A stretch of 64,000 nt of DNA from Thioalkalivibrio thiocyanodenitrificans ARhD 1. GTDB taxonomy: Bacteria; Pseudomonadota; Gammaproteobacteria; Ectothiorhodospirales; Ectothiorhodospiraceae. The position numbers and the translations under genes were made by a program. The stretch spans positions 1,127,583 through 1,191,582 of the forward strand of contig NZ_KB900536.1 in assembly GCF_000378965.1 (NCBI RefSeq), given 5' to 3'. Shown here piece by piece: positions 43,600 through 59,319 of this stretch (within the stretch, counting starts at the first letter, position 1; each line of letters begins with the position of its first letter). Below the pieces are notes generated by a model, which did not search any database, was not told the DNA's origin, and saw nothing but the letters and a program-made list of their open reading frames with translations.

Positions 43600-43756
43600 C
43601 TATTCAAGGTTCAAAGTTCAAGGTTCAAAGGGGGGCGCCGGGCCCTTGCGCGATGGCGGGAAGACGCCAGTCACCTTTAAACTTTAAACCTTGAACCTTG
43701 AACCTTGAACCTTGAACCTTGAACCTTGAACTTTGAACTTTGAACCTTGAATCTCG
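43600..43756. repeat. Heptamer CCTTGAA array with inverted partner
   Basis: Left arm: ATTCAAGGTTCAAAGTTCAA. Right arm: eight or more tandem CCTTGAA units with CTTTGAA and TTTAAAC variants, ending TTTGAACCTTGAATCTCGAA. Left and right can pair over the array. Confidence 0.9.
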
Positions 43757-44060: not shown

Positions 44061-44198
44061 GTCAGTTGTCAGTTGTCAGTTGTCAGTTGTCAGTTGTCAG
44101 TTGTCAGTTGTCAGTTGTCAGGAGCGTAACCGCCCCCCACAGCATGTCAAAGGACTCTTGTACAACTGACAACGGACAACTGACAACTGACAACTGAC
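44061..44198. repeat. Heptamer GTCAGTT array with inverted partner
   Basis: About 8.7 perfect tandem copies of GTCAGTT (44061-44121) are followed, after 41 bases, by five mirrored copies of CAACTGA (44163-44198, one variant CAACGGA). The two arrays are complementary and could pair over more than 30 bases. Confidence 0.95.
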
Positions 44199-53253: not shown

Positions 53254-54165
53254 ATGTCCGTCCCGGCTGCCTATCTGGGCGTGATCCTCATCTGGGCCAC
53301 CACCCCGCTCGCCATTCAGTGGAGCGGCGAAGGTCCCGGCTTCCTGTTCGGCGTGGCCGCGCGCATGGCCATCGGCGCCGTGCTGGCGCTGGCCCTCGCG
53401 CGTCTGTCCGGGGTACGTGTCTGGCGACGGGATGCCCTGGCCGTCTACATGGTGGTGGGCCTGGGGATTTACGGAGCGATGCTCAGCACCTACTGGGCCG
53501 CACAGCAGATCCCCTCGGGATGGATCTCGGCAATCTTCGGCTTCACGCCCATTGCCACCGGCGCCATGGCCGCCCTGTGGCTCCCGGGGCAGGGGCTGAC
53601 CCGCGTGCGCCTGACAGGCGCCCTGCTGGGAGTGGGCGGACTGGCGGTGATCTTCAGCGGCGGGGCGGCCGCCCATGAACAGGCGGCCGCCGGGATCGCC
53701 GCCGTGCTGCTCGCCACCTTCATCCACGCGGCGAGCGCCGTCTGGACCAAGCGCCTGGGCGCCCAATTCCGGCCCCTGGCCCTGGTGGCCGGCGGGCTGG
53801 CCCTGTCCACGCCGCTGCTCGTGGCCACCTGGGCGGTGTTCGACGGCAGCTGGCCGGCCTCGCTGCCGGAACGCGCGCTGGCATCGATCCTCTACCTGGG
53901 GGTCATCGGCTCCGTGCTCGGATTCTCGCTGTACTACTACGTGCTGGGTCGCGTGGATGCAACGCGCGTGGCACTGATCACCCTGATCACCCCGGTGGCC
54001 GCCCTGTTGCTGGGGCATGCGCTCAACGACGAGCCCCTGAGCCTGCTGGTGGTTTCGGGGGCGGGCCTGGTGATTGCCGGGCTGGCCGTCTTCGAACTGG
54101 GAGACCGGATGGCGCGCCACCGGGTCCGGCAGATCCCGAACGGTGGTGACCGATATGCTGACTAG
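53254..54165 (+). CDS. EamA/DMT-family membrane transporter
   Basis: The 303-aa protein has ten predicted membrane helices in two EamA repeats: IWATTPLAIQWSGEGPGFLF and GGLAVIFSGG in the first half, AASAVWTKRLGAQF to VIAGLAVFELGDR in the second. The DMT family exports or imports small metabolites, and the substrate is unknown. AAAGGAGG precedes the ATG at 53254 by 11 bases. Its end overlaps the convergent M48 gene by four bases. It appears to be monocistronic after a strong terminator. Confidence 0.92.
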   Translation: MSVPAAYLGVILIWATTPLAIQWSGEGPGFLFGVAARMAIGAVLALALARLSGVRVWRRDALAVYMVVGLGIYGAMLSTYWAAQQIPSGWISAIFGFTPIATGAMAALWLPGQGLTRVRLTGALLGVGGLAVIFSGGAAAHEQAAAGIAAVLLATFIHAASAVWTKRLGAQFRPLALVAGGLALSTPLLVATWAVFDGSWPASLPERALASILYLGVIGSVLGFSLYYYVLGRVDATRVALITLITPVAALLLGHALNDEPLSLLVVSGAGLVIAGLAVFELGDRMARHRVRQIPNGGDRYAD

Positions 54166-55097
54166 AACCATGTACCGCCGATGCGCCATCCCGGCCTGCG
54201 CAGGTCGGCACGCAACAGAGGGCGCGGGTCAAAGCGGGCGGGAACGGTCAACGGGCGGATACCCGGCATCGGCTGAAGGCCCATGAGCCTTTCGATGCGC
54301 CGTTCCGTAGGCGGGTGTGTGCGCAGCCAGGAGGGTTCCGGGATACGCCAGCCGGGCAGGAGAACCCGCTCCAGCATGCTTCTCTGCACCGATTCGAGCC
54401 TCGCCAGGGCGGAAGCCAAACCTTCGGGGTCGCCGGTCAGCATGACGGCACCCAGATCCGCCTGGTACTCACGGCTGCGCGAGAGGGCGAGCTGGAACAG
54501 CGCGCTCAGTGTCGGTGCAAAAACCAGCAGGGCGATGGCCAGCCAGCTGATGGTCTGTTCGCCCATGATCAGCAGCGGCAGGTTGACCAGCAGCAGGCAT
54601 TGCCCCACCAGTGACAGGAGACCCGTCAGCCGGCTGGAGAGATCCGCGAATGTCATGGTGCGCAGATCATTATGCGCAATGTGGCTGACCTCGTGGGCCA
54701 GCACCGCGGCGAGACCGCGCAGATCCAGGCCCCGCAGCAGTCCGTCGGATACCGCCACGGCCGCCTGCCGGCGATCCCCCACGGAGAAGGCGTTCATCAC
54801 CCGGCTGGGCACGTAGTGGAGCGTGGGTGTGGCCGGCAGCCCGGCCCGTTCTGCCAGTTGCTCCATGATGGCCACGGGCACCGGGGCCACGCGCGCATCC
54901 AGGCGCCGTGCCCGGTACAGACGCATGACCAGCGCCGGCGAAACCGCCGGATTGAAGAAATACAGGAGACACACGGTGCCCATGGCCATCAGGGCGTATG
55001 ATCCCCCACCGATCAGCCAGCCCACCGCGCCCAGCAATCCCATCAATCCCGAGACCAGCAGGACCGTCTGCAGGGCGTTCATGAGCCGATGATTCAT
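54162..55097 (-). CDS. M48-family membrane metalloprotease (HtpX-like)
   Basis: The 311-aa protein has two N-terminal membrane helices (8-28, 32-52), the M48 zinc motif HEVSHIAH near residue 134, two more hydrophobic segments after it and SREYQADLGAVML as third-ligand region, the HtpX-type layout. It probably degrades misfolded inner-membrane proteins. The ATG at 55097 or one six codons upstream is possible; neither has a good ribosome site. It follows the motor-pair genes on the same strand across 54 bases. Confidence 0.88.
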   Translation of the reverse strand: MNHRLMNALQTVLLVSGLMGLLGAVGWLIGGGSYALMAMGTVCLLYFFNPAVSPALVMRLYRARRLDARVAPVPVAIMEQLAERAGLPATPTLHYVPSRVMNAFSVGDRRQAAVAVSDGLLRGLDLRGLAAVLAHEVSHIAHNDLRTMTFADLSSRLTGLLSLVGQCLLLVNLPLLIMGEQTISWLAIALLVFAPTLSALFQLALSRSREYQADLGAVMLTGDPEGLASALARLESVQRSMLERVLLPGWRIPEPSWLRTHPPTERRIERLMGLQPMPGIRPLTVPARFDPRPLLRADLRRPGWRIGGTWF

Positions 55098-55151
55098 TAC
55101 GTGCGCAGGTTCCATCGCGGCACTGCGGCGCGGGCGACCGGCGCGTCCCGC

Positions 55152-56435
55152 TTAATTGGGGGCACTCGTGAGGCGCATCTCGATGCGCCGGTTGCGTGCA
55201 AAGGCCTCTTCCGTATCGCCCGGCGCCACCGGGTGATACTCGCCGAACCCGGCCGCTGCAAGCCGTCGGGGCGGCACCCCGCGGGCGATGAGATACTCGA
55301 CAATGCTCTGCGCCCGGGCCGTGGAGAGCTGCCAGTTGGATGGAAACTGCTCGGTGCGGATGGGGCGCCGGTCCGTGTGGCCCTCCACCATCAGCACCCA
55401 GCCGATATCGTCGGGGATACGCGCATCCACGTCCCGGATGAGCTGCGCCACCCGGTCGAGCCGTTCACGGCCGTCGGCACCGATATCCGCCGAAGCAGTC
55501 TCGAAGAACAGTTCCGACTGGAACCGGAACCGGTCCCCCACGATCTGGATGTCCTCCACGTCCGACAACACCTCCCTCAGGCGCCCGAAGAACTCGGAAC
55601 GGTACCGGGACAACTCACGCACTTCCTCGGCGAGCGCCAGGTTCAGGCGCTCGCCGAGATCGGCGATCTCGACGCGCTGTTCCTCGATGGTGGACTCGCG
55701 TGCCCGCAGGGCCTCGTTGAGCAGGGCAAGCTGCTGCTCCAGGGCCTCCATCTGCCGGCGCATGGCATCCACCCTGGCCTGTGCATCGGCGGTCAGGCGG
55801 CGCTCCTCCACCAGTGCCTGATCCCGTTCCTCCACCACGGCGACCAGATCCTGGATACGGATCTCCCGCTCCTCGATATCCCGCTGGGCCAGCAGCGTGG
55901 TTTCCTCCGCTTCGGCAAGACGCGCCTCCAGGGCCTGGCTGCGGTCGCGCAACTGACCCACGGTCTCGCGGCTTTCGTCCAGCTCCCCGGCGAGACGGCC
56001 GACCTGGGATTCGAGATCCTCACGCACCCGCCGCAGGACGTCGATGTCTTCCTGGAGCGAGGCAATCTCCATCAATCGCGCCTCCAGGGACTCGGCCTGC
56101 TCGCGCATCTCCGCCTGGCTCTCGGCCAGACTCTCTTCCAGCTGGTGGCGTTCGGCCAGTGTCACCTGCAACCGGCCGGTCAGGGCCCGCACGCGCTCCT
56201 GCAGGGCCTCGGCCTCGGCCTCGCGCATGGACAGGGTGTCCGCCAACTGGGTCACCCGCTCCTGGAGGGTCTCCAGTGCGCGATGACGTTCGAAAAGGAC
56301 ATCCGAGAGGTAGAACTGAGCCACCACGAAAAGCATCAACAGGAAGACGAACACCAGCACCACCGTGGCCAGCACGTCCACGAAGCCCGGCCAGATGTCG
56401 GTGCTGCGGCTGCGGCGGCGGAATGTCGAGAGCAT
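55152..56435 (-). CDS. MotB/OmpA-type periplasmic motor protein with long coiled coil
   Basis: The 427-aa protein has one N-terminal membrane helix (19-41) with an acidic residue, Asp20, in WPGFVDVLATVV, the position of the proton-carrying Asp of MotB and ExbD. A coiled coil of about 240 residues (50-290) follows, then a C-terminal OmpA/peptidoglycan domain (VEGHTDRRPIRTEQ near 350). This is a MotB-like stator partner. It is not flagellar MotB, which lacks the long coil. The MotA-like gene lies directly upstream. No Zorya genes (zorC, zorD, zorE) or flagellar genes are near. Confidence 0.88.
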   Translation of the reverse strand: MLSTFRRRSRSTDIWPGFVDVLATVVLVFVFLLMLFVVAQFYLSDVLFERHRALETLQERVTQLADTLSMREAEAEALQERVRALTGRLQVTLAERHQLEESLAESQAEMREQAESLEARLMEIASLQEDIDVLRRVREDLESQVGRLAGELDESRETVGQLRDRSQALEARLAEAEETTLLAQRDIEEREIRIQDLVAVVEERDQALVEERRLTADAQARVDAMRRQMEALEQQLALLNEALRARESTIEEQRVEIADLGERLNLALAEEVRELSRYRSEFFGRLREVLSDVEDIQIVGDRFRFQSELFFETASADIGADGRERLDRVAQLIRDVDARIPDDIGWVLMVEGHTDRRPIRTEQFPSNWQLSTARAQSIVEYLIARGVPPRRLAAAGFGEYHPVAPGDTEEAFARNRRIEMRLTSAPN

Positions 56436-56437
56436 GA

Positions 56438-57586
56438 TTAACCCCTGCCGGGCTGATCTCCCGCGCGCGCCAGGGTGCGCGCCAGCAGGCGGATCTCCTC
56501 ACGAAGGACATCGTTGAGCTGGGTGCGGTCCGTACCCAGTTCCTGGCGCATGGTGTCCAGAGTCTGGGTCAGATGCTGCAACTGGTCGCGGATCTGCCCG
56601 TCGGTGGCGGCGGTGGACTCGGTGGATTGCGCCAGGGCCTGCAGGACACCCTGCAGTTCGCCCTGAGTGCGCACCATGTTCATCATGGCCTTGTGATCGC
56701 TGCGCGATTGTTCCGCCAAGGCGCCCACCTCCTCGATGAGACCCTCCAGACGCTGCTCCGCCGATCGCCGGTTGTCCTCGCCTCTGGCCATGACCCGTTG
56801 CAGCTTGTCCAGGCTGTCGGCGGTCTGCTCCAGCAGGGCCTGGATGTAGGCAGGCACGCTGCCCTCCCCTTCCGCCGCAAGACCACCGCTGGACAGCCGG
56901 GTCTGCCCGGCCAGCCACTCCTCCAGTTCGTTGTAGAAACGGTTCTGGGCATGCCCTGACTGCAGATCGATGAACCCCAGCACCAGGGCGCCGGCAAGCC
57001 CGAACAGGGACGAACTGAAGGCGGTACCAAGCCCGGACAGAGGCGCCTCGAGGCCCGCCTGCAGCCCCCTGAACGCCGTACTGACGTCTTCGCCGCCCAG
57101 GTTCAGGCCGGCGATCACCGCACTGACCCCACCCAGGGTTTCAAGCAGGCCCCAGAAGGTCCCCAGCAGGCCGAGAAACACCAGCAGGCCGATGATGTAG
57201 CGCGAGATGTCGCGGGATTCGTCCAGGCGGGAGCGGATCCCGTCCAGCAGGGTACGCAGCGACGTGGTGGAGAGGGTGAACTGCTCGCCGTGCCGGCCGG
57301 TGAGCAGCCGGGCCATGGCACCCAGGAGACGGGTACGGGGTATGGTGGCGGCGTCTGCCGCGTCGGCGCGCCGGAAGCGCTCGATCCAGCGCATCTCCGG
57401 GGCGAGGATCATCACCTGCCGGTAGTTGATCACCAGACCCGCCAGCAGCACCATCAGGATCATGCCGTTGAACACCGGGTTGGCCATGAAGGCCCGGGTC
57501 AGCGGCATGATCAGGAGACCCACCACGAGGGCCACCGCCAGCAGGAACAGACTCATCCAGATCAGGGCGTTGCGTGTATTGCGCAT
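56438..57586 (-). CDS. MotA/TolQ/ExbB-type stator membrane protein
   Basis: The 382-aa protein has four membrane segments (about 10-30, 38-57, 135-158 and 195-218) with the MotA/TolQ/ExbB motif LVFLGLLGTFWGLLETLGGV in the third. A cytoplasmic C-terminal tail of about 150 residues is helical and repetitive (residues 230-382). It should form a pentameric ion channel around the MotB-like partner, whose gene starts 3 bases downstream. The role is unknown. The ATG at 57586 matches the first helix; the open frame upstream is repeat-derived. Confidence 0.88.
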   Translation of the reverse strand: MRNTRNALIWMSLFLLAVALVVGLLIMPLTRAFMANPVFNGMILMVLLAGLVINYRQVMILAPEMRWIERFRRADAADAATIPRTRLLGAMARLLTGRHGEQFTLSTTSLRTLLDGIRSRLDESRDISRYIIGLLVFLGLLGTFWGLLETLGGVSAVIAGLNLGGEDVSTAFRGLQAGLEAPLSGLGTAFSSSLFGLAGALVLGFIDLQSGHAQNRFYNELEEWLAGQTRLSSGGLAAEGEGSVPAYIQALLEQTADSLDKLQRVMARGEDNRRSAEQRLEGLIEEVGALAEQSRSDHKAMMNMVRTQGELQGVLQALAQSTESTAATDGQIRDQLQHLTQTLDTMRQELGTDRTQLNDVLREEIRLLARTLARAGDQPGRG

Positions 57587-57651: not shown

Positions 57652-57886
57652 AGCATGCTGGAAGGGGAAAGTGGGAATCGGGAAGCGGGAAAGGCCGCCT
57701 CCCGCCCTCCCCCCGCAAGCGACGGAGGGGGTTGCCCCTCACCCTCAGGGTATATGGAGCGGTGTGAGGTTCCTCCCTTCCTCCTTCCTCCTTCCTCCTT
57801 CCTCCTTCCTCCTTCCTCCTTCCTCCTTCATCCTTCATCCTTCATCCTTCTTCCCACTTCCCACTTCCCAACTCCCACTTCGCTAT
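57652..57886. repeat. Heptamer arrays CTTCCTC and ATCCTTC with mirrored GGGAA arms
   Basis: GGGAATCGGGAAGCGGGAAAGG on the left is mirrored by CACTTCCCACTTCCCAACTCCC on the right. Between them are about seven tandem CTTCCTC units followed by four CATCCTT units (57774-57852). The array ends just before the tldE stop. Confidence 0.9.
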
Positions 57887-59226
57887 TCCCCGGCGACCGT
57901 CACCTGCTCCAGGAGCAACGAGCCGGTGCGGATGTTGCTGTCCACGTTCACGTCATTACCCACGGCCCGGATACCCTTGAACAGATTCCTCAGATTGCCG
58001 GCCACGGTGACCTCCTCGACGGGATACCGGATCTCGCCGTCCTCCACCCAGAAACCGGCCGCGCCCCGGGAATAGTCACCGGTCACCATATTGATCCCGT
58101 GGCCGATCAGTTCGGTGACCAGCAGGCCGGTACCCATGTCCCTCAGCAGGCCGTCCAGATCCTGCTCCCCGGGTTCCATGGTGAGATTGTGCACGCCGCC
58201 GGCATTTCCGGTGGTGCTCATGCCCAGCTTTCGCGCCGAATAGCTGTCCAGCACGTAACCCTTGAGCACCCCGCCGTTCACAACGTCTCTGGGCCGGGTC
58301 GCCACGCCCTCGCTGTCGAAGGGCACGCTGCCCAGCGCTCGGGGCAGATGGGGTTGTTCGTGGATGCGCACGAAGGACGGGAAGACGTCCTCGCCCAGGG
58401 CATCCACCAGAAAGGACGCCTTGCGGTACAGTGCTCCGCCGCGCACCGCGCTCACGAAATGCCCGACCAGGGAGCGTGCCATCTCGGGCACGTACACGGC
58501 GGGGCACTGGCGCGTGGACAGGCGCCGTCCGCCCAGGCGCCGCACGGCGCGCCGTGCGGCCTCGAGACCCACGGATTCGGGCGTCTGAAGGCCGTTGGCG
58601 TCCCGGGATACGGAATACCAGTAATCCCGTTGCATCCCCTTCTCGTCCGCGGCCACCACCGAACAGCTGATGGAGTGACGGGTCGCCGTATAGGCCCCCA
58701 GAAAGCCGTGGGTGTTGCCGTAGACCGCCAGTCCGCGAAGCGTGTTGGTGGAAGCGCCTTCGGAATTGATGATCCGCGCATCATGATCCCGGGCGGCGGC
58801 CTCGCAGCTCTGCGCCAACTCGATGGCCTGCTCCACCGACAGGTCCCAGGGGTGGTCCAGGTCCAGGTCCAGCCAGTCGCCGGCCATGAGATCCGGATCG
58901 GCCAGCCCCGCGCAATCGTCCTGCGCCGTATAGCGCGCGATGCGGCAGGCGGCATGCACCGCCTCGCGGAGGGCCTCGTGGCTCAGGTCCGAGGTGCTGG
59001 CCGTACCCTTGCGCTGGCCAAAGTAGACCGTGATGGCCACACCCTGATCCTTGTGGTGCTCCAGGGTCTCAACCTCACCGAGGCGCACGTTCACCGACAG
59101 ACCCAGATCATTGCTGGCGGCCGCCTCGGCACTGCTGGCGCCCGCCCTGCGGGCTTCGTCCAGCATCTGCCCGACGATCGATTCCATGGTCTGCTGGTCT
59201 CTGGGGAGTCTCTGAATGGCTGTCAT
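57883..59226 (-). CDS. tldE: Metalloprotease subunit TldE (PmbA)
   Basis: The 447-aa protein belongs to the TldD/PmbA family and has the TldE pattern GLSVNVRLGEVETLEHHKDQ near residue 45 and GNAGGVHNLTMEPGE near 345. It lacks the HExxxH zinc motif, as expected for TldE, which works together with TldD. TldD/E processes peptides such as microcins and CcdA. Its partner tldD lies 0.9 kb away, with darP between in the opposite direction. Confidence 0.93.
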   Translation of the reverse strand: MTAIQRLPRDQQTMESIVGQMLDEARRAGASSAEAAASNDLGLSVNVRLGEVETLEHHKDQGVAITVYFGQRKGTASTSDLSHEALREAVHAACRIARYTAQDDCAGLADPDLMAGDWLDLDLDHPWDLSVEQAIELAQSCEAAARDHDARIINSEGASTNTLRGLAVYGNTHGFLGAYTATRHSISCSVVAADEKGMQRDYWYSVSRDANGLQTPESVGLEAARRAVRRLGGRRLSTRQCPAVYVPEMARSLVGHFVSAVRGGALYRKASFLVDALGEDVFPSFVRIHEQPHLPRALGSVPFDSEGVATRPRDVVNGGVLKGYVLDSYSARKLGMSTTGNAGGVHNLTMEPGEQDLDGLLRDMGTGLLVTELIGHGINMVTGDYSRGAAGFWVEDGEIRYPVEEVTVAGNLRNLFKGIRAVGNDVNVDSNIRTGSLLLEQVTVAGE

Positions 59227-59319
59227 GTATATTCCCGAGTGTCTGGAGAGCGGGCCCGGGGACCGGGGATCTCCTGAATCGTTGTAAGATGCAGTCCGCG
59301 AGTCAACGCAAAGCGGACT

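Follow-up and report, generated by a model that had tools for sequence, protein, structure and literature searches.

The DNA considered here is a 64,000-nucleotide stretch of the genome of Thioalkalivibrio thiocyanodenitrificans ARhD 1 (contig NZ_KB900536.1, positions 1,127,583 to 1,191,582 of the forward strand; hereafter the window), and this report concerns two genes on its minus strand, here called A and B, which lie 2 bp apart and encode a predicted channel subunit and a MotB-like subunit with a long coil. A preliminary description had recognised a MotA/TolQ-type protein paired with a MotB-like protein that bears the channel residue Asp20, a long coil and an OmpA domain; its coordinates and description proved correct, the proline-free coil spanning 234 residues. 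The following features can be placed along the pair:

56438-57586, minus strand: gene A, 382 aa, with its ATG at 57586, a subunit of the MotA/TolQ/ExbB/ZorA fold and predicted to be a pentamer subunit.
56903-57268, minus strand: channel core of A, residues 107-228 (last two transmembrane (TM) helices), from a core alignment with ZorA, MotA, TolQ and ExbB.
56456-56851, minus strand: helical cytoplasmic tail of A, residues 246-377, with helices 246-322 and 329-376 in an AlphaFold2 model.
55152-56435, minus strand: gene B, 427 aa, a MotB-like subunit of the PRK09039 family.
56304-56396, minus strand: IWPGFVD motif, channel Asp20 and TM helix of B, residues 14-44, from alignment.
55602-56303, minus strand: proline-free coil of B, residues 45-278 (234 aa), which reads as heptads.
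55572-55607, minus strand: joint between coil and OmpA domain of B, residues 277-288 (RYRSEFFGRLRE), strongly conserved.
55188-55508, minus strand: predicted OmpA-type peptidoglycan-binding domain of B, residues 310-416 (Pfam OmpA, 66.6 bits).

The telling feature of the pair is the kept heptad phase of the coil in B, not the length of that coil. In a 182-row set of B proteins (181 relatives plus the window, two loci being present twice), Asp20 and Trp15 are identical in every row, and S280, F282 and F283 of the joint RYRSEFFGRLRE are likewise kept in 182/182. These two regions served as anchors, each found with its own ungapped profile, which took no account of the distance between them. Ten of 193 loci lacked a B open reading frame (ORF), several of them at contig ends, and two gave a weak anchor, which left 181 and the window to be measured; removal of the duplicates (L116 = L206 and L058 = L059) reduced the set to 180 different B proteins and the disjoint pairs of unequal length from 75, of which 46 differed by multiples of 7, to 74. 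Loci L058 and L059, identical and in opposite orientation, both come from contig JAMFRO010000072.1 and perhaps reflect an inverted assembly duplication. An earlier anchoring by regular expression (112 sequences anchored, 14 not, 97/112 in one class) is superseded by the present measurement.

Among the 180 proteins, the distance between the Asp20 anchor and the joint anchor ranges from 148 to 611 residues and takes 60 different values, and 142 of them fall into a single class modulo 7. Where the ends are less than 70% identical, 59 of 70 proteins belong to that main class, and in those 70 periods 7 and 3.5 give Rayleigh R values of 0.73 and 0.91, against at most 0.37 at every other whole period from 2 to 15. 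Comparison of disjoint pairs of unequal length (74, not strictly separate events on the tree) finds length differences divisible by 7 in 45, displaced by 3 or 4 in 22 and of other sizes in 7; with one in seven expected, 45/74 has a binomial P of about 4e-20, whereas 22/74 equals the even-spread expectation (2 in 7) and is notable only within the 29 non-multiples (22/29 versus one in three). Pairs with ends at least 75% identical give a multiple of 7 in 17/25, and among 16 aligned close pairs, eight could be aligned with one gap, including gaps of 7, 7, 14, 14, 28 and 70 residues.

The interior of the coil is consistent with this regularity. In the 70 B proteins the hydrophobic phase of the two coil halves has R values of 0.99 and 0.92, with an agreement of 0.92 (shuffled coils 0.01-0.18), and proline is absent from 174/182 coils. 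Two controls taken from protein A show no heptad pattern, namely the length of its tail (R 0.24 at period 7, 128 rows) and that of its loop (R 0.29 at period 7, 79/128 rows with both anchors), both including all rows, near-copies too. Taken together, the length classes, the register of the coil halves, the scarcity of proline and the null controls mean that the B coil is best read from these sequences as one continuous coiled coil, whose length drifts but whose phase from the channel helix to the OmpA domain is preserved. Two other origins of the pattern were considered and rejected: slippage of a 21-bp repeat, as the window B gene (the only gene inspected for this) has no 21-bp tandem repeat, and a hairpin coil with paired arms, which would favour steps of 14 (R 0.21 at period 14 versus 0.73 at period 7).

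An analogy, with no homology claimed, is offered by the PadC phytochrome diguanylate cyclases, cytosolic signalling enzymes whose linkers vary by sevens; the part of PMC9587094 consulted gives length differences divisible by seven in 54% and reads the linker as a signal-transmitting coiled coil. Heptad-phased linkers of this kind lend some weight to a different view of the pair, as an ion channel or strain sensor tethered to peptidoglycan, in which stretch of the envelope gates the channel and the coil relays a register-type signal, not torque. The variable tail of A could then bind a cytoplasmic partner, and no constant third, partner gene was seen in nine loci inspected by ORF without a family scan (L020, L022, L025, L027, L029, L031, L032, L034 and L071). 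We nevertheless consider a sensor unlikely: the conserved channel residues of the superfamily fit a motor, and a strain gauge should depend on rod length, yet the coils differ by 60 residues in a B pair that is 93% identical at its ends. For this last reason, and in view of the estimated rod lengths given below, the length of the B coil also seems not to be a ruler.

Beyond its coil, B falls within the NCBIfam family PRK09039 (NF006543, 'peptidoglycan -binding protein'), scoring 400.9 bits against a cut-off of 305 (400.7 bits with frame neighbours). The flagellar proteins MotS, MotB and PomB supply its best PDB matches, through their OmpA domains, and its eight Pfam matches at E<=0.1 comprise OmpA and coil-type or uncharacterised models, with no TolR/ExbD domain and no MotB-plug among them. 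Within the OmpA domain, D355 is kept in 175/175 and R374 in 173/173 ungapped rows, residues that we take to have a role in diaminopimelate binding. An arginine corresponding to R374 is named in PMC11369160, as far as the portion consulted goes. The PRK09039 family resembles B by score, and its name states neither a function nor a partner; a search on it found no paper on the A-B pair by title and abstract start, nor was a published function or description of the pair found by titles and abstract openings in the open-licence PubMed Central (PMC) literature, among the matches listed. The pair, which had been called uncharacterised, is not an orphan, since B belongs to a named, functionless family and the pair is widespread. 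What is known is thus a family name for B without a function, and what is new and testable is the heptad law.

Protein A scores 18.6 bits against Pfam MotA_ExbB (PF01618, cut-off 22.9) when taken alone and 23.7 bits with frame neighbours in the genome search, and it lies above no NCBIfam family cut-off. An AlphaFold2 model built from a 60-row alignment is all helical, with a mean predicted local distance difference test (pLDDT) score of 82.3; it was used in place of an earlier, poor model from 6 sequences (mean pLDDT 66.4). The 50 Foldseek matches listed for this model are all ExbB, TolQ, ZorA or MotA/PomA chains (E 4e-4 to 0.03), while a sequence search of the PDB with the A profile gave, in the best 60 of 96 matches, mostly helical chains matching on the tail and no MotA, TolQ, ExbB or ZorA chain. 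Six core residues (T143, P182, G185, F190, S193 and G196) are invariant in 60/60 aligned relatives. The alignment starts within model residues 1-10 in 7/10 MotA/PomA-type rows and at residue 23 or later in the ExbB, TolQ and ZorA rows, a pattern that would fit an additional TM helix at the N terminus of A, as in MotA. The long cytoplasmic tail noted in the preliminary description is present in the window but is not obligatory: it exceeds 120 residues in 108/128 relatives and has 10-12 residues in 3/128, and its near absence in those three makes a role as the general output of the motor unlikely.

The kinship of A was addressed by a core tree of 73 columns, and by a second tree from which two aberrant rows (a misaligned MotA, L172, on a branch of 10, and a stray ExbB) had been dropped, 77/79 rows being kept. 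Both trees separate A and ZorA from MotA, MotC, TolQ and ExbB, with support of 92/91 in the first and 98/94.6 in the second, whose bootstrap had not settled (correlation 0.978), and all 42 A rows fall outside the MotA/MotC branch in both best trees. A tree that constrains A with Mot has an approximately unbiased test p-value (p-AU) of 0.20, and one that constrains it with Tol/Exb a p-AU of 0.22; because neither is rejected, the A-ZorA kinship suggested by these alignments is a lead, not proof. A forms one group in only 19% of the second-tree bootstrap trees, and in the first tree ZorA adjoins the divergent A row L124 (genome G156), a pattern that recruitment of Zorya from the A family would give, which is likewise a lead, long branches meeting at that point. 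The first helix of the A model, unmatched in ZorA, speaks against the kinship. Three divergent A-B pairs with 30-34% identity to A were seen (L203 in G104, L204 in G156, L205 in G234), and inspection of their ORFs by eye, without family scans, found no Zorya-like set beside them.

Comparison with the flagellar motors MotAB/PomAB finds likeness in the four TM-type helices of A and the MotB-type OmpA domain of B, and the anchoring dimer of MotB has also been described as a coiled coil (PMC9389320, in the part consulted). The pair is unlike them in that B has no match to the MotB-plug and the genome none to MotA_N (PF20560; 0 matches at E<=1e-5, with 38/94 genomes of the class matching), and in that flagellar B subunits carry a plug and a Pro/Gly-rich linker according to the consulted portion of PMC12505986, as opposed to the 234-residue coil of this B. 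The claim that the system is not flagellar is thus borne out by the absence of a MotA_N match and by the position of A outside the MotA branch in both trees, although grouping of A with Mot is not rejected.

The pair is widely distributed. A shares 84-97% identity with its counterparts in four other genomes of the genus and 45-67% with those of further relatives, most across nearly the whole length, and this conservation excludes a chance ORF. An A gene was found in 17/229 genomes of the class and in 94/398 genomes of the phylum, eight from the window's class and 86 outside it; with at least 28 of the 398 belonging to the class, the rate outside is at least 86/370. A wider scan gave at least 579 confirmed stretches, and the 80 kept are, by record title, mostly from Rhodospirillales and further Alphaproteobacteria; Gamma- and Betaproteobacteria contributed a few and Nitrospirae one metagenome-assembled genome (MAG). 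An A match occurs in 90/90 loci and a B match in 88/90, the exceptions (L030, L093) ending soon after A. In a Sinorhizobium meliloti record the homologues are adjacent and named 'MotA/TolQ/ExbB proton channel family protein' and 'peptidoglycan -binding protein'. The phage collection gave no match to the pair, and the three plasmid records with a match are all replicons of 3.5-4.6 Mb.

Many loci hold a further gene of possible relevance. Many alphaproteobacterial loci have, upstream of the pair, a gene for an OmpA-domain protein whose linker is rich in proline. It was seen in 47 of the 87 loci having at least 350 bp upstream, on the same strand in all 47 and within 221 bp of the A ORF in 46; of 14 starts inspected roughly, 9 resembled a signal peptide, and the protein is probably secreted. 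It is a candidate third component of the motor in Alphaproteobacteria (L049, L035, L039, L086, L092 and 42 further loci). It also lends weight to the idea that A-B is a divergent Tol/Ton-like energiser pulling an outer-membrane partner, in Alphaproteobacteria perhaps this very protein, and ExbB and TolQ are among the best structural matches of A. The channel fold is shared with TolQR/ExbBD, and T143 and S193 of A lie at the threonine positions of TolQ/ExbB in our alignment. We judge such an energiser improbable, however: B carries an OmpA domain and has no TolR/ExbD match, no TolA or TonB gene lies beside the pair, the N-terminal helix of A aligned in none of the ExbB/TolQ rows listed, and the upstream OmpA-domain gene is absent beside the pair in the window and in relatives L018-L027 (it is present in L033, a MAG titled Gammaproteobacteria). 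The genome, 99.99% complete, holds one A copy and four other PF01618 matches, which we take for TolQ and three ExbB types, their neighbours having been read by eye without a family scan. One of the four, a TolQ-type match (C1:1149541-1149864), corresponds to window positions ~21.96-22.28 kb, and an OmpA match, presumably Pal, lies at ~18.5 kb. The preliminary description had placed the Tol set at 18-22 kb and held the pair to be neither Tol nor TonB type, and both statements agree with these results.

On either side of the pair lie housekeeping genes, the nearest being:

57883-59268, minus strand: pmbA, upstream of A.
54162-55115, minus strand: M48/HtpX-like protease, downstream of B.

Besides A and B, the family scan covered six neighbours, with tldD, darP, nitrilase and DUF3108 genes nearby, and purM/purN, assigned by reading ORFs, are also near the pair; no defence or motility gene is among the six. 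In all seven loci from the genus and genus g5, pmbA adjoins the pair, and it does not in the other four neighbourhoods fetched. An M48/HtpX-like protease directly 3' of B is also seen in the genus relatives L018 and L019 and not in L020 or L021. The window contains three 7-bp tandem arrays with differing units, TTCCTCC x12 (57770-57854), AACCTTG x9.3 (43687-43751) and GTCAGTT x8.7 (44061-44121), the first of which sits between pmbA and A; locus L018, whose A is 97% identical, has other 7-bp units between these genes (AAAGTTC x3.6 and CGTTGAA x3, L018 6980-7064).

This context bears on the proposal that A-B is a Zorya-type or other anti-phage defence motor whose effectors have been lost or are kept elsewhere. 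The general plan is indeed alike: both systems have a MotB-like B with a channel Asp and a peptidoglycan-binding domain, a cytoplasmic tail on A and, in our alignment, the common core motifs LG.LGTF and AF..S..G. PADLOC finds ZorA1 as the best model for A (40.7 bits, 3e-11) and ZorB3 for B (1.9e-24), and the core tree joins A with ZorA. Nevertheless, A scores far below ten ZorA reference proteins, which reach 156.9-766.3 bits on their best PADLOC models (the references being labelled by the same models), gives 15.5 bits against a cut-off of 100 for NCBIfam ZorA_2, and the two ZorA models tried find no match in its whole genome at E 1e-10. Alignment of the solved ZorA chains with A begins only at A residue 24, B has a long phased coil, and the tail of A is dispensable, whereas the ZorA rod is called crucial for defence in the consulted part of PMC11890865. 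Furthermore, the scanned neighbours are housekeeping genes, with pmbA, tldD and the M48 protease among them, pmbA recurs beside the pair in genus and g5 loci, and phage and plasmid records contribute little, as described above.

Genome G092 holds both a ZorA gene and an A-B pair. One locus (L207, 6784-14772) contains a ZorA1-type gene (L131; 428.9 bits, over the NCBIfam cut-off) followed by three genes for proteins of 254, 479 and 1159 aa, whose GC content at third codon positions (GC3) of 0.39-0.45 is below that of the surroundings, and the A-B pair lies elsewhere (L206; GC3 0.55-0.63). These are two separate systems in one cell, the three genes after ZorA being described from their ORFs and GC3. 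No zorC-, zorD- or zorE-like or other Zorya effector gene occurs among the scanned neighbours of the window pair, the rest of the genome not having been searched for effectors, and since no effector gene stands beside the pair, the locus is not a Zorya operon, nor is A a ZorA; the earlier view of a stand-alone pair without zorC, zorD or zorE is upheld in this effector-free chromosomal context. A role in defence thus appears remote.

Our preferred reading, to which we assign a probability of roughly 0.6, is that A-B is a stand-alone 5:2 ion-driven rotary motor, anchored to peptidoglycan, whose coil is a torque-bearing shaft. The proposed ion-driven turning follows from homology with MotAB, TolQR and ZorAB. 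A pentamer of A would surround a dimer of B in the inner membrane, and ions would cross between Asp20 of B and a polar ring of A (T143, S193), their passage turning A relative to B. A Ser/Thr ring around the B-subunit aspartate is described in the part of PMC11890865 consulted. The TM dimer of B would run on as an unbroken parallel coiled coil into the OmpA domain, which would hold B to peptidoglycan, the coil thus serving as an anchoring shaft that carries motor torque from the membrane to the cell wall; its phase would have to fit at both ends, and its length would be free to drift. By the calculation of Rieu et al. (PMC9389320, in the part consulted), the torque needed to uncoil a coiled coil is close to the most that such a motor can deliver, and a shaft having to bear that torque would be under selection for unbroken heptads, as observed. 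Coiled coils in general conserve their heptads; this one stands out in having parts of a motor at both ends. Most likely the motor would act mechanically on wall and envelope, an output that we favour over signalling or defence.

Several points weigh against this reading. Thirty-eight of the 180 B lengths lie outside the main modulo-7 class (29 off by 3 or 4, the shifts known in coiled coils as stammer and stutter, and nine otherwise), two of the single gaps in close pairs measure 1 and 25 residues, and 8 of the 16 aligned pairs need several gaps, many of them individually not multiples of 7. Moreover, heptad-preserving insertions and deletions could simply keep any coiled-coil dimer folded, without torque. 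At a helix rise of 0.1485 nm per residue the estimated rods have a median of 28 nm, and 59% exceed 25 nm, which is long for an upright rod, the periplasm being roughly 20-30 nm across; judged by these predicted lengths, they may be oblique. Foldseek gives A modest E-values (4e-4 at best, two matches at 0.001 or better), and VIA-align Z-scores of 8.6-11.8 leave ExbB, TolQ, ZorA and MotA tied. Because these scores fail to separate the families and an unrelated designed bundle reaches 9.4, the matches of the model support the superfamily fold of A and no single family. Finally, presence is patchy in the window's own family, where A occurs in 12/58 near relatives, the own genome counted and 5/5 genus genomes included (one of the 12, in G048, being a weak match of 27% identity that is possibly not a member), and this speaks against an essential role there.

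The A-B pair looks like a widespread motor that stands by itself, related to the 5:2 class but different from its flagellar, Tol and Zorya members. A further step, which we advance only tentatively and hold to be somewhat doubtful, would make it a separate, widespread and apparently undescribed class of envelope motor with a torque shaft of free length and fixed phase, from whose lineage the Zorya motor was maybe recruited. Non-flagellar ('generic') B subunits are described as lacking OmpA-like domains in the part of PMC12505986 consulted, a rule that a B family of the PRK09039 type would break. The heptad law also amounts to a natural experiment on the question raised by Rieu et al., in the portion of PMC9389320 consulted, of whether the anchoring coiled coil must bear motor torque, the shaft having been varied in nature over roughly 118-581 residues (anchor distance less 30) with its phase mostly kept. 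Few 5:2 motors have been characterised, namely the flagellar, Tol, Ton, gliding and type 9 secretion, and Zorya motors, and a further one, common in Alphaproteobacteria, would, if true, fill a gap in envelope biology.

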